Positions 2,163 to 41,642 of a stretch of DNA of 41,783 nucleotides are shown here, in pieces. The DNA is taken from contig JAFZQX010000014.1 of assembly GCA_017620205.1 (NCBI GenBank), positions 1 to 41,783 on the forward strand, written 5' to 3'. The notes beneath the pieces are model-generated. The model had not been told where the DNA came from. It ran no database searches and saw only the letters and a list, made by a program, of their open reading frames with translations. Source of the stretch: Clostridia bacterium. GTDB lineage: Bacteria > Bacillota > Clostridia > UMGS1883 > UMGS1540. The position numbers and the translations under genes were made by a program. Numbering within the stretch: the stretch's first letter is position 1; every line of letters starts with the position of its first letter.

Positions 2163-2171
2163 GAGGAAAAT

Positions 2172-2417
2172 ATGAGAATTGATAAATATTTAAAGGTTTC
2201 GCGCCTTATAAAGCGCCGCACCATAGCAAACGAAGCGTGCAGCGCGGGCAGAGTTACGATAAACGGCAGAGCCGCCAAGGCGGGCTCGGATGTAAAAGCC
2301 GGCGATATAGTAACCATCGGCTTCGGCACGAAAACAATTAAAATTGAGGTTTTAAAAGAGAGCGAACACATAGGCAAAGACGACGCTCCCACAATGTATA
2401 AAATTTTAGAAGGTTAG
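2172..2417 (+). CDS. rqcP: S4-domain RNA-binding protein RqcP
   Basis: The 81 residues form a single S4 RNA-binding fold beginning MRIDKYLKVSRLIKRR, with the GRVTINGR turn, and end in the MYKIL motif typical of YabO/RqcP. In Bacillus subtilis RqcP binds the obstructed 50S subunit and works with RqcH to add C-terminal alanine tails to stalled nascent chains; that role is known for the family and inferred here. The size matches RqcP rather than the longer Hsp15/HslR. An AGAGGA ribosome-binding site sits 9 bases after the thrS stop, so the gene is co-transcribed with thrS. rqcH is not in the window. Confidence 0.92.
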   Translation: MRIDKYLKVSRLIKRRTIANEACSAGRVTINGRAAKAGSDVKAGDIVTIGFGTKTIKIEVLKESEHIGKDDAPTMYKILEG

Positions 2418-11934: not shown

Positions 11935-14502
11935 TTAGTCAAGACGGATTGTATCCGATATCTGTTCGCCCGCGTTTTTTTCGGAATAACGGCTTATAAA
12001 TTCTCTCATTTTTTCGTCCGCCGCTTTGATGTCAAGCAAGAATTCGGAAGCCGATATTCTCACCGCGCCTTGTCCGAAAATTATTACCTGCTCTAAATTA
12101 TCCGAAGTTGCAACATGCACGCGGTATTTTTTTACAAGCTCGCGCGAGGTCTTTTCGATATACGCGTCCGCCGTTTCCGCTTCTTTTGTGTATACCACGT
12201 TTATGCCGTGTATCCTTTCTATTTCGCCGTGATTTCCCTTTACCTTGTAAGCGTCAAACACTAAAATGACATTTATTTTGCAAAATGCCTGATAATTAAC
12301 GACCCTATTTATAAGAGTATCACGCGCCGCTTCAAGGCTTGTCTCGGCTATTTTTTTCAAATCGTCCCACGCGAAAATTATGTTGTAGCCGTCAATCAAC
12401 AGATAAAGCGGTATATCGGGAGTTTCTTTGATTTTTTGAGGTTTGAATTCCTTAATCTTTACCGGCTCGGAATACTGTTTCCTCGTGATTTTTCCGTATG
12501 TGCGCTCGTATATCGCCAAAAGCTCTTCTTCACTTGCCGCCTTGCTTTCGCGCTTTGCCGGCTGTACGGAAATAACTTCATCTTTTTTAGTATTTATAAG
12601 CGGCAAATCCATATTGTCAAACACTTCATCCCATTTTACGATATATCCGCTGCCGTGGGCGCAGAATACGGAATCGGGAGTATTGAAAGTATCGGCTTCG
12701 GGGTTATATGCCATATCCGTTATTACCTCATATGAATTTTTGCATGGCGCATATCCGTCGAAAACGCAACTGAGTCTGCCCATGCCGTGAGTGTAAACGA
12801 CAACCTTTTTATGATAGTCTCTGATAGCAGAAACGGGCGCACTGCCTTTTATTACGGATATATCGCCGTTTGACTCGGGCGGTCCGAATTCGGCTCCTAT
12901 TTGTTCTAAATCTGTCATAGCTTTGCCCGTATCCGTAAGCGGCACTTCAAGCGTAAATGAATACCACGGCTCAAGCAGTATGCCGTCCGCCTGCATAAGA
13001 CCCTGTCTCACGGCGCGGTATGTCGCTTGTCTGAAATCACCGCCGTCTGTGTGCTTTACGTGCGCCTTTCCGTTTACTATAGTAATTTTTACGTCTGTAA
13101 GCTCCGAACCGGTTAAAACGCCTTTGTGCGTTTTCTCTTTGAGATGCGTAAGGATAAGCCTCTGCCAGTTTTTGCTCAAAATATCTTCGGAGCAGTTCGA
13201 TGCAAACGTCAGTCCGCTGCCGCGTTTTGCGGGCTCTAAAAGAAGATGCACCTCCGCATAGTGGCGAAGCGGCTCAAAATGGCCTACGCCCTCAACGGTA
13301 TTTTCTATTGTTTCTTTATATATTATTCTGCCGTGGCCGAATGACACGTCAAAATTGAATCGCTCCGACACAATGCGCTTTAAAACCTCAAGCTGTATCT
13401 CGCCCATGACCTGAATCCCTATCTCGTTCATACCGTCATCAACAGACACGCGCATCTGAGGGTCTTCTTCCTCGATCTTTTTAAACGCCGCAAGCGCAGT
13501 ATGAATATCAACGCCATCGGGGAGAATTGCTGTATATGAAAGCACGGGCTCTGTAATGAGTGACGCCGCATCGGCTTCGGAGCCCAGCCCCTGTCCAGCA
13601 TACGTTGCGGAAAGGCCCGTCACTGCATAAACGCCGCCCGCTTCTGCCTCCTGCACAGCCTTATACTTCTGCCCGGAATAAATGCGGATTTCGTCAACTT
13701 TTTCGCTTTTACCCTCAAAAGGAATTACCGTTCTCGGTTTCAGCGTGCCGCCCGTTATTTTAAGATGCGTAAGGCGCCTGCCCTTTTCGTCTTCAGAAAT
13801 TTTATAAACGCGCGCGCCAAACGACGAGGAGTATTTGCGGGCAACCGTATATTTATCAAGCGCTTCGGCAAATTCCTTAACGCCTTCGTTTTTAAGAGCC
13901 GAGCCGAAAAAACACGGAAAAACCTGTCTCGCGGCTATTGCCGTTTTAAGCGTTCCGGTTTCTATTTTGCCGTTTTCAAGATATTCGTCCATCATTTCCT
14001 GTGACAGAAGCGCCGCGTTTTCTGAAAAATCCGCTGAAAAATCGAGGCAGCCCTCGCCGAAGCTCTCGCACATCGAATTTAAAACATTCTCTTTGTCAGC
14101 TCCCGTCAAATCCATTTTATTTACAAAAATAAACGTAGGAACATTATAGTGCGAAAGCATATTCCAGAGCGTAACCGTATGGCTCTGAACGCCCTCCGCG
14201 CCGCTTATAACCAAAATAGCATAGTCAAGCACAGACAAAGTGCGCTCCGCCTCCGCAGAAAAATCAACGTGACCGGGCGTATCCAGCAGCGACACGGAAG
14301 TTTCACCCAAATTAAGCTCCGCCTGCTTTGAAAAAATAGTAATACCCCTGTCGCGCTCTATTTCATTTGTATCAAGAAATGTGTTTTTATGGTCAACCCT
14401 GCCGATAGACGAAATCGTGCCCGAAACGTATAAAAGCGCTTCGGAAAGTGTTGTTTTCCCTGAGTCTACATGGGCAAGGATACCGATAACCGTTTTTTTC
14501 AT
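11935..14502 (-). CDS. Tet(M)-like translational GTPase fused to Rae1-type NYN nuclease
   Basis: The 855 residues join two known families. Residues 1 to about 640 follow the EF-G/Tet(M) ribosomal-protection plan: P-loop AHVDSGKTT (10-18), LDTPGHVDF (about 73), NKMD (about 127), a beta-barrel domain II, then domains III-V including LLEPWYSFTLEVP, the Tet(M) domain IV region. After a basic linker (about 645-695) comes a NYN/PIN domain closely resembling Bacillus Rae1/YacP: LLIDGYNIIFAW (D704), VFDAYKVKG, KEAETAD (D779), HVATSD (D801), IFGQGAVR. Rae1 cuts mRNA in the ribosomal A site; Tet(M) enters the A site and releases tetracycline. The fusion suggests a GTP-driven factor delivering a nuclease to the ribosome (inference). 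Tetracycline resistance is not shown. GNAT follows in the operon. Confidence 0.92.
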   Translation of the reverse strand: MKKTVIGILAHVDSGKTTLSEALLYVSGTISSIGRVDHKNTFLDTNEIERDRGITIFSKQAELNLGETSVSLLDTPGHVDFSAEAERTLSVLDYAILVISGAEGVQSHTVTLWNMLSHYNVPTFIFVNKMDLTGADKENVLNSMCESFGEGCLDFSADFSENAALLSQEMMDEYLENGKIETGTLKTAIAARQVFPCFFGSALKNEGVKEFAEALDKYTVARKYSSSFGARVYKISEDEKGRRLTHLKITGGTLKPRTVIPFEGKSEKVDEIRIYSGQKYKAVQEAEAGGVYAVTGLSATYAGQGLGSEADAASLITEPVLSYTAILPDGVDIHTALAAFKKIEEEDPQMRVSVDDGMNEIGIQVMGEIQLEVLKRIVSERFNFDVSFGHGRIIYKETIENTVEGVGHFEPLRHYAEVHLLLEPAKRGSGLTFASNCSEDILSKNWQRLILTHLKEKTHKGVLTGSELTDVKITIVNGKAHVKHTDGGDFRQATYRAVRQGLMQADGILLEPWYSFTLEVPLTDTGKAMTDLEQIGAEFGPPESNGDISVIKGSAPVSAIRDYHKKVVVYTHGMGRLSCVFDGYAPCKNSYEVITDMAYNPEADTFNTPDSVFCAHGSGYIVKWDEVFDNMDLPLINTKKDEVISVQPAKRESKAASEEELLAIYERTYGKITRKQYSEPVKIKEFKPQKIKETPDIPLYLLIDGYNIIFAWDDLKKIAETSLEAARDTLINRVVNYQAFCKINVILVFDAYKVKGNHGEIERIHGINVVYTKEAETADAYIEKTSRELVKKYRVHVATSDNLEQVIIFGQGAVRISASEFLLDIKAADEKMREFISRYSEKNAGEQISDTIRLD

Positions 14503-14549: not shown

Positions 14550-14578
14550 ATTGTAGCATTTTTCAGCAAATATTTCAA
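14550..14578 (-). promoter_or_regulatory. Promoter of the Tet-like/Rae1 fusion gene
   Basis: TTGAAA (14578-14573) and TACAAT (14555-14550) with a 17-bp spacer. The leader of about 45 nt carries AAAAAGGAAATAAA before ATG 14502. I see no leader peptide or attenuator of the kind found before mobile tet(M) genes. Confidence 0.75.
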
Positions 14579-31398: not shown

Positions 31399-34300
31399 TT
31401 ATTTTGTGAGTATTGTAGCTTTCTGAATTGCCGAAAGCGTCAGACCGTTCCATGTATAGATTTTAACATATTCAAAGTCCTCGGGAATCTGGAGCTCAAA
31501 CGAACCTTCGCCGTCAGCCTCTGCGGTATTTGCGGAAAGGAGTTCGCCGTCCGCATCGTAGCATGCCGCGAAAATTCTTGTGCTTTCGCCTACGTTTTCG
31601 CTATAGTCGATTGTAAGCGTATCGCCCGCAGAGAGGTCTGAAAGCTTATTTATAGCTGTGCCGTCTGCGTTTTTAGCAGTAAGCTTTGTATATGCCATTG
31701 TATCGTAAGCGTCTTTTTCGTTGTCATAAATATTTGCGATACCGTCTTCGCTCAAAACGCCTGAGTATACTTTAACGTCTGAGAAGCTGATGTCGCCGGG
31801 GATATATCCGCCGTTTTCGTCAGCACCGAGACTTATCCATGACTCAGCGAGTCCGTGTCCGCCGAGGCTTAAGCTTTCCGTAAGTTTGAGCTCTCCGTCT
31901 ACGTAAACCTGAACCGTTTTAGCGCCGTCCGTAAACTTAGGAATTGTCATTACAACGTGATGCCACTGTTTATCTGTGCCTACTCCAAATGTTCCGTTTG
32001 ACCAGTTATCGCTCCAGAGGTATCCGCTTTCCTCATTTGTTTCAAGCGTTGCCTGCCAGAGTCTGCCGCGTGAGTTTGTGCCGTCATCAGTATTTCTGAA
32101 TGTTCCGTCATCGCGCTTAGCATTGTACTGAACTATCGGATAATATGAGCTGCCCTGTATCTGTTTTGATATCGGGTCTAAGTTCGTCCAAAACGTCAGC
32201 GTTATATCCTGCGACTCAAACGCGGGATCTGTTATCTTAAACGCGTTGCCCGTCTCACCCGCCGGGTTGCTGTGAGATATTCTTATAACTTTCTTCGGTG
32301 CGGACAAATCATCTTTATTATAGAGGAAGTCCGTTGTAAGTCTTACTTTGTTTGAAGAATAAGCGCTGATAATTGCAGTTGTGCTTGTACCTATATTTAC
32401 AATGCCGGACGAACCTTCTTCTGTTGTCGGAGCAAAATCCGTAAGATCAAGGTCTACCAAAATTTCTCCGTCGTAAGCGGGCGGTGTCTGCTCCTCTGTA
32501 ATAGTAAGAGTAGCTGTAAGTACTAAGTCATTGTATCCTTCTTTTGTGATTGTAGCGGTTACATCGTATGTACCTACATCGGAAGCGCCCAAGAATGCTG
32601 TGCCGCCGCATGTGTATGTTATATCAACATCTTCTGTTGCGCCAACAGCTGCGGATACCAGAATATTGTGTGTAGCGCCGTCGAATTCGAACGAAGCGTC
32701 TTCGAATGTGTAACCCGTGATATCCTGAAGTACGGGTGCGCTGCCCTCTTCGGTAAATCTGTTTACATCTGCGCTGTAGAGTGACGCGATATCGCTTGCA
32801 GACATAACGCCTGAGTAAACTTTAATATCGCCGAATTTTCCGGCTTTGAGAACGCGGGCTCTAAATCCGTTGCCCTCGTTGCGCGCTGCAAGGGAAACTG
32901 TTGCGCCCGTAATAGTTGCATTATCGGGAATACTCAGTGTTACTGTATCCTTAAGCTGACCGTTTATATATACGCCCATTGTCTTTGAGCCGCCCGAGCG
33001 TTTTGGGTTTGTAATAACAACGTGTTTAAAGCCTTCGGGTACAGAATATGCATCCGCAGTTGTAGCAACTGAGTTATTCTGTGCGTTCCAGTCGCCTTCC
33101 GTGTTCATAGAAAGGTCAAAGGAAGCTACACCGCCGTCATACTCTACATAGTACTGCAGGATTTCCTTGTTCTTGTCCGTATACCTTTCCGGATCAACCC
33201 ACAATGAAATTGTGTTGTCATAAGCTTCAAAATCGGTATTGCTGAAGTTAAAGCCTATTTCGTTTTCGGCCCAAGCATAGTTTTCGTTTTCGAGTTTTAT
33301 ATAATCTGTCGTTGTGCCTGCTGCGTTTGCAAATGACTCTTTGCCGATTGTTACGCCGTTCTTTGAACGGATAACCGTATTTGTTGTGCCTGCCCATTCA
33401 CCGTTATCTACGGCTCCGGAGGTGCCGGAATACGGGTATGTGCCAACATCAACTGCCATGTTTGTAACATCAATGTCTAAGAGCGTGTCGCCTTCTTCTA
33501 TAGGATCGGGAGGCGTCTGCTGAGCCGTAATGGTAAGCGTAGCAGAAAGAACCACAGGCGTGCAGCCCGCTTTTGTGATTGTAGCAGTTACAGGGTATGT
33601 GCCAACTTCCGCAGCGCCCGTAAATGCCGCGCCGCCGCATGTATACGCAATGCTTACGCCCCCGGTAGCGTTTGCGCCTGCCGTAACGGTTATGTTATGG
33701 CTCTGACCGTCATATTCTACCGTATCGTTTGCGAAAGTATATCCCGTAATTGTTTCGGGTTCTACATATTCGCCCGTATGTTCTTCTTCTTCATAAATAA
33801 CCGTTGGTGCTGTATAGCTGTTTGCGTTGTTGCAAACGCTTTCAACAACCGACTGGCTCGGAATTGTGCCGTATGTTATATAGTGCATATACATAAAGAT
33901 TTCTTTCTGTGCGAGACCCCATGAGTGGTTTCCCCAACCGGACGGAGCTACGAACTTCGTAACTACATCGGGATTGTTATATGCTATGCCCTGTTCATAA
34001 CGGTTTATAGTCGCCAGGAATTCGCCGTTTTGTTCGCCCTCGCCCGCGGAGAGGTATACATCTGCATCATCAGCGAAGTGAATATCTTTTGCCCAGTAAC
34101 GGAAGCCCCAGCCGCTTGTACCTGAGGATTCACCAAGATAGAAGCTTTTAGCCGGGCTCAAACCGCCGACGTTTTTAAGGCGTGTATTATACTCGTCGCC
34201 TGCGTAAACGGCCGCCATACCGCCCATTGAGAAGCCTGCAACGTAGATGGGTTTGTCTGTGCCTATCTGCGGAGAAAGCGTTCCGTTTTCAATGCTTGTA

Positions 34301-37300
34301 AGAAGCGTATTAAATCTCTTCGGCTGTGATTTTATAATGTAGTACTGGAAGTCGTCTATGTTGCTGCCGCCGCCCGTGTAGTCAAGAACTTCCGGAATTA
34401 CAACGTTTACGGGCGGGAAATAACCTGCTTTTACCCATCTTTCAAAGTTTGACTGCAGTCTTTCCTGGAATGATGTTACGCTGCCCTGACCGTGGATAAG
34501 AATAATAGTAGGATATTTGCCTGCTTTTTTGGGTGTGAAGTAATAACCTACACATTCGTCATTGAGCGTATAACGAACTATTTTGCCGCTGTATATATCT
34601 TCCGAGGATGTCGCATACTGCGGTCCTACCGGCTGTATTGTTGCGGAATTTATAGTAAGCGTTGCAGTAAGTACGAGGTCGTCGTATCCGGACTTTTTAA
34701 TTGTTGCCGTTACGGGGTATGAGCCAACTTCGGAAGCGCCTGTAAACGTAGAGCCGTTTGATGTATATGTAATAGTAACGCCGTCTGTTGCATCTTCCGC
34801 GTGCGATACATAAATCATATGTGTTGCGCGGTCATACGCTACAGTTTTGTTTTCTAACGTGTAACCCTCTATCTGAGGATATTCCACTTCACCTGTTTGT
34901 GTAAATCTGTTTTTGCTGTTGTTATATGCATCCGATGCTGCGGAAGCGCTCAAAGCGCCCCGGTAAATCTTAAAGTCGCCTATCTTACCTGCTGCTGCAA
35001 CTGCTTCGCGTGTTCTCCACGGGCCGTCATCGGATGTATAGCTTCCGACAGATTTAGAGAAGAACGATATTGTCGCTCTGTCAATTGTTGCGCCGTCGGG
35101 AATATCAAGCGTTACTGTCTTTTTAAGTGCGCCGTTTATATAAACGTTCATTGTCTTTGTGTTTCCGGAACGTTTCGGGTTTGTTATAACTATGTGCTTC
35201 CAGCCGTCGGAAACGGAGAACGCACCTGTCGCTGCGTCAGAGGGACTTGTCGATGTGGGAGCGCTTACGGCGTTCCATGTACCGTCGGAATTTACGCCGA
35301 GGTCGAAAGTTTCAAAGCCTTTGGTGCCGCCGGAAGTGTAGTCAACTCTGTAACACATGATCTCTTTCCAGACATGGCTCTTTGTTACATCAAGCCAGAA
35401 TGAAATTGTGTTGTCAGCGCTTTCAAACGAATTATTATGCATCTGCAAATTGATAAGATGCTGTGCATAGGAATTACCCGTTGCTACATTGGGGTAAATT
35501 ACCGAGTCAAAGTAATCAAGGTAATTTGTAGTACCATTATCAGCGTTTTCAAACGAACCCTTTTTAAGAGTTGTCTCTCCGTTAGGTCTCTGTGAGAAAC
35601 CAAGCGTTGTACCCGTCGCCCAGTCGCCCGATTTTGTGATGCCGGAAGACGCCGCAACGGAGCTTGCCGTAGGCGTGAAGCTCTCCGGTACCAGGTTTGT
35701 CATATCAAGTTCAAGATATGTGTCGCCAAGGTCAGCCGGATCGGGATCTGTCTGCTTAGCCGTTATTGTAAGCGTTGCATTTAAAGTGCGGGTGTTATAT
35801 CCTGATTTTGTAATTGTAGCAGTTACAGGGTATGTGCCCACTTCCGTTGCACCGGTAAATGCCGCGCCGTTTGATGTGTAAGCTATGCTTACGCCCTCAG
35901 TAGCGCCGTTTGCCGCCGTAACCGTTATGTTATGACTTGCGCCGTCATATTCTACGGAGCTGTCCGAGAATGTATAGCCCTCTATGTCGGGCGTAACGGC
36001 ATTGCCTGTATCCGTGAATTTATTTTTGCCCGCGTTATATGCAGAGGCAACTTCTGAAGCGGTCATAGCGCCGGAATATACTTTTATGCCGCCGAAGGAC
36101 ATATCTTCGGGATAGTATATAGAACCTGTAGTTACGGGACAGCCTGCAAAACCGAGCGTGGCAGTGCCGAGTGTTCCCGACGGTTTTGAGATTGATTTGG
36201 TCAGTTTAAGCTCGCCGTTTACATAAATCTTAACAATCTTTGTACCGTTTGTATATGCAGGGTTTACTATAGTATAGTTTGCCCATTTGTTCCAAAGACT
36301 TCCGAGTTCAACTTTGGACGAGGTGTCCCATGCGTCATATATTGACATTGCCGAGCCTGTATCCGTGCAAAGTCTCAAAATGTTCGTGTTTGTTCCGTCA
36401 TAAGTTGCGCTGTAAGTCATCAGATTTCTGCGCTCTCTTGTAGGCGCGGAAGTTTTAATCCAGAACGAAATTGTGTTTGCCTGTGTTTCAAGAACGCTGT
36501 CCTGTAAGAAACGTCTTGTATTATTCGCGCTTTCGAGCTGATCGTTCTGCGTATAATGCAAATATGACGTTGTGCCGCCTGCGGCATTTGCAAACGTTTC
36601 CTTTGCAAGACTTTGGTTTGTATATGTACTTGTGCGGTTTGACATAACAACTCTTGTAGAAGCGCCGCGTGTACCGTTATTTATAATACTGCCGATAGTG
36701 TTTGTGTCGCCCGTCTGAGTTGTTGTGTCGCTTACGTATGATGACATATCAAGGTCGATAAGCGCATTGTCGCCTGTACCGGGATCGGGATCTACGGGAT
36801 CGGGATCGTCGGGTGTTGCCTGTGTTGCCTCGGCGTCAAATTTATTTGCGCCCATCTCGTTTATCTTATATATCTGTTTTGTACTTAATACGCCGTTATA
36901 TACTTCAATTTCGCTTATTGAAAGGCTGTCCGGATAATAAATTGTATGATTTCCGTCTGCCTCACCGCCGAATGCGAGTTTTGCGGACTGGAGCGTGCCG
37001 CTGGGTTTTGTAACAGTTTTCTCAAACGCCAAAGAGCCGTCAATATAAACGCCGAGTGTCTTAGAGCCTTCCGAATCATAAGCGGGGTTTGTTATAACGT
37101 AATGCGCCCATTTGCCGTTTGTGTCGTTTATATTTACTCTCGGCTTGCCGCCCGAGCTGTCATCCCAGCCGTTGCAGAGGAACAAGGTTGATGTGCTTGA
37201 ATCGGAGCAGAGTCTCAGCACATGCGAATCCGAGCCGTAATTTACCTGATAGTGTAAGATATTACGTCTTTCCTGTCCGGGCTGAACTTTTGCCCAGAAT

Positions 37301-38616
37301 GAAATTGTATTTGCCTGTGTTTCAAGAATACTGTCTGATATAAATCTCTTGTTGTTAGCCGTCTGAACGAGAGTAGTATTCTTTGTGAATTCCAGATACG
37401 GCGTTTGTTCGTTTACGCCGTTTGTAAACGTTTTCTTTTCAAGCTTCTGTGAATTTGATGTGTCATAGTTTGACATAACAACTCTTGTAGAAGTGCCGCG
37501 GGTACCGCTGTTTGTAACGTTACCTATTGAAGCTGTGCCCGATGCAGGATTTGTTGTTGTGTCTTTTGTATAGCCTGACATATCGAGGTCGATAAGCTTT
37601 GAAGGAAGAGTTACGTTGCTTAAATCAAGCTCTTCGCTTACAACCTCGGGCGTTGTCGGCATTCTGTAGTTACAAGCCGATTCCGTAACTTCAACGCTCG
37701 GCAATACGCCGTGTTTGTTAAGATACATCCACATGAAGATTTCCTTCTGGAAGAGAGGCCATGCGTGACCGCCCCAGTCATACGGACATTTGTTAACAAC
37801 GAGATTCAATCCGTCGTTATTTCCCGTAGATGTAATTGCTGTTGAATACTTCGTTACTGCCTCTTCAAAAACTTTTTCGTATGAAGGAGCCTCACCTCTT
37901 TCGGCGTCGCCGTAAGTAAGAAGTATCCTCGCTCTGGGGTCTTTTGAACAATAAATATCAGAAGCATGTTCATACCAGCCCCCTTTGCCTTCACCGAGAT
38001 ACATACCTCTCGAAGGACTTATTGCGCCTATATCAAATATTTCATCTCTGAAATTAGGATCACAGCCTATCTGGAGCGCTGTCATACCGCCCATTGAGTA
38101 GCCTGCAACCTGAACGGGTTTTGTAGTATCAATTTTGTCGCAGAACGTGCCGTCTTTAATATGACTGTAAAGAAGCGGCCATCTGTACTGGTTTGTAATC
38201 CAACCCGTAAAATCGCCCGTGCTTCTAACTTCGCCTGTGCTGTAGGCTCCGTCTGCCGGGTTGTGGTTTATCTCCGGTATAATGACAACCGCAGGTTCAA
38301 ACCAACCCGCTTTTACCCATTCGTTCATAAACGCGAGTATATGCGGTTTCATGTTCTGCATACCGCCCTGACCGTGAATCAAAACGATACACTGATATTT
38401 ACCCGGCGCTTTCGGCGCAAAATAATAACCGTGGTTATAGAATGTATTGCCGCTTGCGTTGGGGTACGCGTATTCTACGAGCACATTGTAATAACAATCT
38501 GCTGCGTAAACGTCTGAAATATCAGACGGAAGCAATGATACAATCATCATTGCACACAGCAGCACTGCCAAAAATGGCAGTGCCGTTTTGTGAGTTTTGC
38601 CAAATACTTTTTTCAT
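31399..38616 (-). CDS. Giant secreted multidomain protein with two esterase domains
   Basis: 2405 residues. A signal peptide (1 to about 39, cut after VYA) is followed by E1-L1-L2-M1-L3-M2-E2-M3-L4-M4-L5 and a 95-residue beta-type tail. E domains (about 40-310 and 1335-1610) are alpha/beta-hydrolase esterases: HGQG, GYSMGG (S174) and GFSMGG (S1463), and histidines in GGHAW (H284) and GNHSW (H1564). E1 has GDAE (D237) as likely acid, whereas E2 has GEGE. L domains (about 340-590, 618-870, 963-1240, 1710-1960, 2055-2305) look like LamG/concanavalin folds with TISFW and VYINGxL strands. M modules (about 80 residues) are MBG-like, each with GYT, YDG and VGTYPVTATI. No LPXTG, SLH or dockerin is seen. 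The start at 38616 has AGGAGG 6 nt upstream. Binding and deacylation of polysaccharide is a plausible inference; the substrate is unknown. Confidence 0.88.
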   Translation of the reverse strand: MKKVFGKTHKTALPFLAVLLCAMMIVSLLPSDISDVYAADCYYNVLVEYAYPNASGNTFYNHGYYFAPKAPGKYQCIVLIHGQGGMQNMKPHILAFMNEWVKAGWFEPAVVIIPEINHNPADGAYSTGEVRSTGDFTGWITNQYRWPLLYSHIKDGTFCDKIDTTKPVQVAGYSMGGMTALQIGCDPNFRDEIFDIGAISPSRGMYLGEGKGGWYEHASDIYCSKDPRARILLTYGDAERGEAPSYEKVFEEAVTKYSTAITSTGNNDGLNLVVNKCPYDWGGHAWPLFQKEIFMWMYLNKHGVLPSVEVTESACNYRMPTTPEVVSEELDLSNVTLPSKLIDLDMSGYTKDTTTNPASGTASIGNVTNSGTRGTSTRVVMSNYDTSNSQKLEKKTFTNGVNEQTPYLEFTKNTTLVQTANNKRFISDSILETQANTISFWAKVQPGQERRNILHYQVNYGSDSHVLRLCSDSSTSTLFLCNGWDDSSGGKPRVNINDTNGKWAHYVITNPAYDSEGSKTLGVYIDGSLAFEKTVTKPSGTLQSAKLAFGGEADGNHTIYYPDSLSISEIEVYNGVLSTKQIYKINEMGANKFDAEATQATPDDPDPVDPDPGTGDNALIDLDMSSYVSDTTTQTGDTNTIGSIINNGTRGASTRVVMSNRTSTYTNQSLAKETFANAAGGTTSYLHYTQNDQLESANNTRRFLQDSVLETQANTISFWIKTSAPTRERRNLMTYSATYDGTNTNILRLCTDTGSAMSIYDAWDTSSKVELGSLWNKWANYTIVNPAYTNGTKIVKIYVNGELKLTKSISKPSGTLGTATLGFAGCPVTTGSIYYPEDMSFGGIKVYSGAMTASEVASAYNAGKNKFTDTGNAVTPDIEGYTFSDSSVEYDGASHNITVTAANGATEGVSIAYTSNGAAFTGATEVGTYPVTATITKSGYNTRTLNATLTITAKQTDPDPADLGDTYLELDMTNLVPESFTPTASSVAASSGITKSGDWATGTTLGFSQRPNGETTLKKGSFENADNGTTNYLDYFDSVIYPNVATGNSYAQHLINLQMHNNSFESADNTISFWLDVTKSHVWKEIMCYRVDYTSGGTKGFETFDLGVNSDGTWNAVSAPTSTSPSDAATGAFSVSDGWKHIVITNPKRSGNTKTMNVYINGALKKTVTLDIPDGATIDRATISFFSKSVGSYTSDDGPWRTREAVAAAGKIGDFKIYRGALSASAASDAYNNSKNRFTQTGEVEYPQIEGYTLENKTVAYDRATHMIYVSHAEDATDGVTITYTSNGSTFTGASEVGSYPVTATIKKSGYDDLVLTATLTINSATIQPVGPQYATSSEDIYSGKIVRYTLNDECVGYYFTPKKAGKYPTIILIHGQGSVTSFQERLQSNFERWVKAGYFPPVNVVIPEVLDYTGGGSNIDDFQYYIIKSQPKRFNTLLTSIENGTLSPQIGTDKPIYVAGFSMGGMAAVYAGDEYNTRLKNVGGLSPAKSFYLGESSGTSGWGFRYWAKDIHFADDADVYLSAGEGEQNGEFLATINRYEQGIAYNNPDVVTKFVAPSGWGNHSWGLAQKEIFMYMHYITYGTIPSQSVVESVCNNANSYTAPTVIYEEEEHTGEYVEPETITGYTFANDTVEYDGQSHNITVTAGANATGGVSIAYTCGGAAFTGAAEVGTYPVTATITKAGCTPVVLSATLTITAQQTPPDPIEEGDTLLDIDVTNMAVDVGTYPYSGTSGAVDNGEWAGTTNTVIRSKNGVTIGKESFANAAGTTTDYIKLENENYAWAENEIGFNFSNTDFEAYDNTISLWVDPERYTDKNKEILQYYVEYDGGVASFDLSMNTEGDWNAQNNSVATTADAYSVPEGFKHVVITNPKRSGGSKTMGVYINGQLKDTVTLSIPDNATITGATVSLAARNEGNGFRARVLKAGKFGDIKVYSGVMSASDIASLYSADVNRFTEEGSAPVLQDITGYTFEDASFEFDGATHNILVSAAVGATEDVDITYTCGGTAFLGASDVGTYDVTATITKEGYNDLVLTATLTITEEQTPPAYDGEILVDLDLTDFAPTTEEGSSGIVNIGTSTTAIISAYSSNKVRLTTDFLYNKDDLSAPKKVIRISHSNPAGETGNAFKITDPAFESQDITLTFWTNLDPISKQIQGSSYYPIVQYNAKRDDGTFRNTDDGTNSRGRLWQATLETNEESGYLWSDNWSNGTFGVGTDKQWHHVVMTIPKFTDGAKTVQVYVDGELKLTESLSLGGHGLAESWISLGADENGGYIPGDISFSDVKVYSGVLSEDGIANIYDNEKDAYDTMAYTKLTAKNADGTAINKLSDLSAGDTLTIDYSENVGESTRIFAACYDADGELLSANTAEADGEGSFELQIPEDFEYVKIYTWNGLTLSAIQKATILTK
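32486..35990 (-). repeat. Four MBG-module DNA repeats inside the giant gene
   Basis: Modules of about 240 bp recur at roughly 32486-32730, 33520-33760, 34640-34880 and 35757-35990. They share near-identical 20-40 bp blocks such as GTAGCGGTTAC/GTAGCAGTTACAGGGTATGTG. The DNA similarity, beyond protein similarity, implies recent duplication or gene conversion and makes this gene prone to recombination and assembly collapse. Confidence 0.8.
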
Positions 38617-38648
38617 ACTAATCCTCCTATTTGCCATAATGCACATAC

Positions 38649-41525: not shown

Positions 41526-41642
<117 letters not shown>

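Follow-up and report, generated by a model that had tools for sequence, protein, structure and literature searches.

A Tet-like GTPase fused to a Rae1-type nuclease in Clostridia, its relation to free Rae1 and its possible role at paused ribosomes

How is the cleavage of mRNA in the ribosomal A site targeted and triggered on paused ribosomes? Rae1 is an A-site endonuclease (PMC12320835, PMC6613710), and A-site cleavage feeds the tmRNA/SmpB rescue route; the list of A-site mRNA endonucleases is still incomplete (PMC12320835). A gene from a Clostridia bacterium bears on this question. It lies in a 41,783-nucleotide stretch of DNA (the window) and encodes an EF-G/Tet-like GTPase followed by a Rae1-type NYN nuclease domain. 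A nuclease fused to a ribosome-binding-type GTPase is a Rosetta-stone clue: the natural fusion hints that free Rae1, too, may have a GTPase of this kind as a partner. The natural candidates are those sister GTPases that lack the NYN domain and share a genome with free Rae1.

The architecture itself has already been published: Atkinson 2015 described it in ten Clostridiales, as Tet proteins that carry a YacP-like NYN domain (PMC4342817). No later paper on the function of the fusion was found in the literature searched, where Rae1 papers were only partly covered and the absence is thus weak; its function has apparently never been tested in print. New here are the replacement of free Rae1, the finding that NYN-less sisters do not occur alongside the fusion, and the loss of a basic tail from the fused nuclease. 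Condon 2018, which reportedly treats the distribution of Rae1, may contain an earlier mention of the fusion or of the replacement.

Gene and protein architecture

The gene occupies positions 11935-14502 of the minus strand, stop codon included, as one unbroken frame of 855 residues with an ATG start and an AGGAA-type ribosome-binding site; the coordinates of its parts refer to the same strand. Pfam assigns a G domain (GTP_EFTU, residues 5-219, 13846-14490), domain II (EF-G_D2, residues 229-304, 13591-13818; its 26.4 bits are slightly under the 27-bit cut-off), domain III (EFG_III, residues 318-389, 13336-13551), domain IV (EFG_IV, residues 391-505, 12988-13332) and domain V (EFG_C, residues 509-590, 12733-12978). 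By alignment, the P-loop, the switch II motif DTPGH and NKxD are all kept in the G domain. P-loop residues D13, K16 and T17 are present in 108/108 aligned fusions with letters there, D74 and H78 in 110/110 (His78 of switch II is invariant), and NKxD is kept across the 110 with the exception of one N.

Domain IV is the part of EF-G and Tet proteins that reaches the decoding site. Its tip (residues 480-491, AHVKHTDGGDFR; 13030-13065) belongs to a family pattern, H-x-K-H-T-x-G-G-D-F-R, which is nearly invariant; H481 is the conserved EF-G-type His, and K483 stands at the position of Tet(M) Pro509. Domain V is followed by a conserved C-terminal extension (DSVFC.HG.G..VKWDEV...M, residues 591-632, 12607-12732) at the position of the Tet(M) C-terminal helix. 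The extension is also found in the NYN-less sister proteins.

A linker (residues 633-700, 12403-12606), which varies from 67 to 116 residues across the fusions, leads to the Rae1/YacP-type NYN ribonuclease domain (residues 701-851, 11950-12402). This domain is assigned by structure and by Pfam (NYN_YacP, 171 bits, E 2e-50, cut-off 24.6). The first-pass annotation had named the acidic residues D704 (12391-12393), D779 (12166-12168) and D801 (12100-12102), correctly; D750 (12253-12255) is an additional fourth. It had also named a loss of catalytic residues among homologues as a refutation, which is not seen in 110 aligned fusions: the catalytic-type D704 and D779 and the acidic D750 are present in 110/110, and the catalytic-type D801 in 109/110. 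This conservation supports the view that the NYN active site is kept under selection. One intact frame with GTPase motifs and a complete NYN domain is likewise upheld, by the ORF, by Pfam and by the 110-fusion alignment.

An AlphaFold2 model built from an alignment of 31 fusions has a mean pLDDT of 80, and both the GTPase body and the NYN domain are confident. The GTPase body superposes on ribosome-bound EF-G and TetM. The NYN part aligns to the B. subtilis Rae1 structures 5MQ8/5MQ9 (E 6e-31); when folded separately, the C-terminal part fits 5MQ9 at 1.8 A over 143 columns (TM 0.77 by target length, 40% identity), and B. subtilis Rae1 is its sole convincing structural match. The Rae1 assignment first made for this domain thus agrees with both sequence and fold. 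The linker is low-confidence except for a helix at residues 658-669, flanked by disordered residues 639-656 and 673-695. The conserved linker motif D.EL..IFERTYG (residues 658-670, 12493-12531; E660 in 105/110 fusions, T668 in 104/110, Y669 in 102/110) is predicted as a helix amid an otherwise disordered tether, and may be a docking element.

The other refutation named in advance was an assembly chimera or a frameshift that joined two genes. More than 100 genomes, each assembled independently and some of them closed and on a single contig, contain the same single open frame of about 840-950 aa; because of this recurrence a joining error can be excluded with near certainty. In 391 same-class genomes, NYN_YacP frames are either about 170-215 aa or about 850-950 aa long, and a phylum-wide draw of 249 genomes gives the same two sizes. 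A scan of named genomes added 80 more loci, mainly from gut Oscillospiraceae and Ruminococcus-type Clostridia. One copy is broken: in genome G221 (L084:1544-4255) a frame break splits the fusion into a GTPase frame and an NYN-bearing frame, which could be a decaying copy or a sequencing error.

Relation to tetracycline-protection proteins

Atkinson 2015 suggested that the fusion is a ribosomal protection protein of the tetracycline type that has gained an RNase. The complete EF-G/Tet domain set accords with this, NCBI labels some members 'TetM/TetW/TetO/TetS family', and in a tree with EF-G as outgroup the window family adjoins the acquired Tet proteins. However, the same tree (37 fused and 18 NYN-less family members and seven acquired Tet proteins; quick trees, with long branches flagged) places the seven acquired Tet proteins in one clade and the window family in another, apart from Tet(M)/O/Q/36/TetB(P)/OtrA, with support of 99 and 99-100. 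For the GTPase part, identity is 57.8% with a Monoglobus relative and ~48% with NYN-less proteins encoded by Ligilactobacillus salivarius megaplasmids, and it falls to ~35% with TetB(P), 30% with Tet(Q) and 28% with Tet(M). The first description of the GTPase as 'Tet(M)-like' can be kept in the sense of EF-G/Tet-like, but not in the sense of close Tet(M) kinship, as identity is 28% and the family is sister to all sampled acquired Tet proteins.

A curated model and a key residue also stand against tetracycline protection. On the NCBI tetracycline-protection equivalog (cut-off 775) the fusion scores 427 bits, whereas the controls Tet(M) and TetB(P) score 878 and 959. Pro509 of Tet(M) overlaps bound tetracycline (PMC7456112; PMC8161019). 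The equivalent residue, 483 in a gap-free alignment for which the Tet(M) numbering was checked, is Lys in 36/37 fusions and in 16/18 NYN-less relatives, whereas it is Pro in 7/7 acquired Tet proteins.

The family is widespread on commensal chromosomes; members are mostly chromosomal and come from gut commensals. The fusion has neither conserved neighbours nor a mobile context: no mobile element was seen at the locus, and no neighbour family occurs in more than 6 of 115 loci, by which an operon partner was also dismissed. A promoter-like TTGAAA-17-TACAAT (14550-14578, minus strand; a consensus match only) lies 48 bases upstream of the start codon, with no obvious space for a leader peptide of the Tet(M) type; no such leader peptide or attenuator is evident in the 174 bp upstream, which is weak evidence. 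Two distinct EF-G-type genes of ~700 aa are present in the window's genome, and no acquired Tet protein was found in it.

Tetracycline protection with an added RNase is thus improbable, and judged from its sequence the GTPase is not a tetracycline-protection protein. The suggestion of the first-pass annotation that the fusion is 'not merely a resistance protein' is supported by the separate clade, the Lys in place of Pro509, the missed Tet cut-offs and the lack of mobile context. Some public records name members of the family 'TetM/TetW/TetO/TetS family tetracycline resistance', a label for which the sequences give no support. A case of its own is the NYN-less LSL_RS10690 (L098:2986-4920) on pMP118 of L. 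salivarius UCC118, which adjoins rpsN and scores 374 bits against the 775 cut-off; its public name, TetM/TetW/TetO/TetS resistance protein, looks misleading.

The other contents of the window can be noted briefly. An RqcP-like S4 ORF (2163-2414, plus strand) directly follows thrS (219-2162) and lies 9.5 kb from the fusion. The presence of RqcP in the window, pointed out earlier, is real, but a link to the fusion is not borne out; with no neighbour conserved across 115 loci, its proximity is coincidental. The fusion matches no family among the PADLOC anti-phage defence models at E 0.001, and a defence system was dismissed. Positions 31399-38646 encode a protein of 2415 aa in which an esterase and an MBG-type domain accompany five lectin-type Laminin_G_3 domains; it is probably a large carbohydrate-active enzyme of the cell surface. 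A 5S rRNA gene (41526-41642, minus strand) is located close to the contig end.

Replacement of free Rae1

A linker-region query finds the fusion in 104/291 Clostridia-class genomes; a related GTPase without the nuclease, about 640-735 aa, is found in 16/291. (For this table genome handles were matched, and the 291 were taken as the first 291 of the 391-genome draw.) A separate NYN above the cut-off is present in 0/104 genomes with the fusion vs 84/187 without it. Fisher's p for this association is 1.6e-20 with no correction for relatedness, and it overstates the evidence because related genomes are not independent. The window's genome has exactly one NYN_YacP, which is the fusion, and in the phylum-wide draw 16/16 fusion genomes have exactly one NYN. 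Genome G133 has two fusions. Apparent second NYN domains in G136, G201 and G242 were dismissed, as they are 46-residue matches below the cut-off. Only one genome of the 391-genome list, G330 (L039 and L062), was seen with the fusion plus free Rae1.

The absence of a separate Rae1 had been named in advance as support for replacement, and the 0/104 against 84/187 provides it: the fusion has taken the place of free Rae1 in many Clostridia. Neither fusion nor free Rae1 is present in 96/291 class genomes, about a third, and the function is therefore dispensable. The NYN-less sister GTPase is never found in a genome with the fusion (0/104 vs 16/187 genomes without it); 10 of the 16 class genomes that carry the sister have a separate Rae1.

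Fused and free nucleases differ at the C-terminus. Free Rae1 ends in a basic tail, LE(K/N/E)xR (of LE(K)xRR type), in 26/26 class genomes. Beyond the class the tail is variable, mostly FEKWRR or LEKxRR, and 17/25 fit by a loose pattern. Fused NYN domains have no basic tail there: they either end before it or carry an acidic version, and the few loose matches to the tail pattern in fusions lie at other positions. In B. subtilis Rae1 the missense allele R166P, within the tail, causes loss of function (PMC6613710). The tail may help free Rae1 to dock or act on the ribosome and would be dispensable once the GTPase had taken over docking; its loss from the fused NYN fits a transfer of docking to the GTPase. 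Median net charge also differs, being -4 for fused NYNs vs +2.5 for free ones; the fused domain may therefore act on another substrate.

The trees are compatible with a single fusion event: grouping the fused GTPases costs nothing (AU p 0.52), and a branch with SH-aLRT 96 splits fused from free NYNs when the L027 sequence is omitted. L027 (L027:1486-2004) is a free NYN of genome G243 which has an intact LEKIR tail and yet groups with the fused NYNs; an NYN-less GTPase (L090:1987-3933) is encoded elsewhere in the same genome. This free NYN is either an unfused ancestor-like form or a product of fission. Its grouping implies that fusion is not strictly required.

Two further explanations must be weighed here. 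The first, mere linkage, supposes two independent activities with no common mechanism. The GTPase and the NYN domain do occur separately in other genomes and the linker is mainly disordered in the model, but a single fusion has been maintained across about 50% protein divergence, the linker motif is conserved, the tail of free Rae1 has been lost from the fused NYN, and the trees (AU p 0.52; NYN-side SH-aLRT 96, one row omitted) are consistent with one origin. Mere linkage is accordingly hard to credit.

The second supposes a lineage-specific translation or ribosome-maturation factor, comparable to EF-G paralogues such as EF4 and BipA, whose NYN domain would trim rRNA or tRNA instead of mRNA. 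The NYN-less sisters occur on their own, which shows the GTPase to have a function independent of the nuclease; the altered charge of the fused NYN would permit a new substrate; and rRNA and tRNA maturation was earlier proposed for NYN domains (cited in PMC4342817). Against this, fusion genomes are otherwise without any Rae1, which better fits Rae1 replacement, and the fused domain shares the Rae1 core beyond the catalytic residues (DGYN, FDA, TKE.ETAD, TSD..Q). A maturation factor is unlikely on balance, though it deserves serious attention.

Proposed role and known systems

The explanation we prefer, to which we give an even chance, is that the fusion is a chromosomal, vertically kept ribosome-surveillance endonuclease in which the GTPase anchors Rae1 activity on paused ribosomes and the products enter tmRNA rescue. 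Its observed basis is the architecture, the intact active sites, the replacement of Rae1, the separation from the Tet clade, the loss of the tail, and the presence of tmRNA and SmpB, both found in the window's genome by family searches. The EF-G/Tet-like GTPase module would bind ribosomes with a vacant or paused A site, and a tether of roughly 70 residues would deliver the Rae1-type NYN nuclease, perhaps in a GTP-gated manner. The nuclease would cut mRNA, presumably within the A site or close to it; hydrolysis of GTP would release the factor from the ribosome, and the truncated complex might then be passed to tmRNA/SmpB rescue. The fusion would thereby fill the role played by free Rae1 in Bacillus and other Clostridia.

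The chief mechanical objection is that domain IV and the Rae1 domain would each claim the A site, which cannot hold both at once; they would have to be placed in sequence or in some other way. The two may take turns in the A site, or the NYN domain may act from beside it; a linker of 67-116 residues allows either arrangement. Stated more broadly, and held a little less firmly, many Clostridia may have swapped free Rae1 for a GTP-driven, ribosome-targeted mRNA endonuclease in one polypeptide, whose GTPase forms a subfamily distinct from EF-G and Tet and has a nuclease-free sister.

The fusion can be compared with several known systems. The Tet-NYN fusions of Atkinson 2015 (PMC4342817) have the same order, an EF-G/Tet-type GTPase and then a YacP-like NYN RNase, in Clostridiales. 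They were classed with tetracycline resistance Tet proteins, as a possible resistance mechanism (PMC4342817); in contrast to that reading, the GTPase described here forms a separate clade, the tetracycline-contacting proline is absent and free Rae1 has been replaced. B. subtilis Rae1 (5MQ8, 5MQ9) and the fused NYN have in common the NYN/PIN-type fold, all the acidic residues, and the DGYN, FDA, TKE.ETAD and TSD..Q motifs. However, the B. subtilis protein is free, ~170 aa long and ends in a basic FEKWRR-type tail, whereas the tail of the fused NYN is lost or acidic. Tet(M) and Tet(O) resemble the fusion in having a five-domain EF-G-like GTPase, the catalytic motifs and a C-terminal element past domain V; the fusion differs in the absence of the SPVST loop and in having a further conserved C-terminal extension, a linker and a nuclease. 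EF-G shares domains G, II, III, IV and V and the His at the domain IV tip, but on the EF-G equivalog the fusion scores 291 bits, under the cut-off of 659. The NYN-less sister GTPases belong to the clade of the fusion and have the HT.GGDFR loop and the VFC.HG.G C-terminal extension, but have neither the linker motif nor the nuclease.
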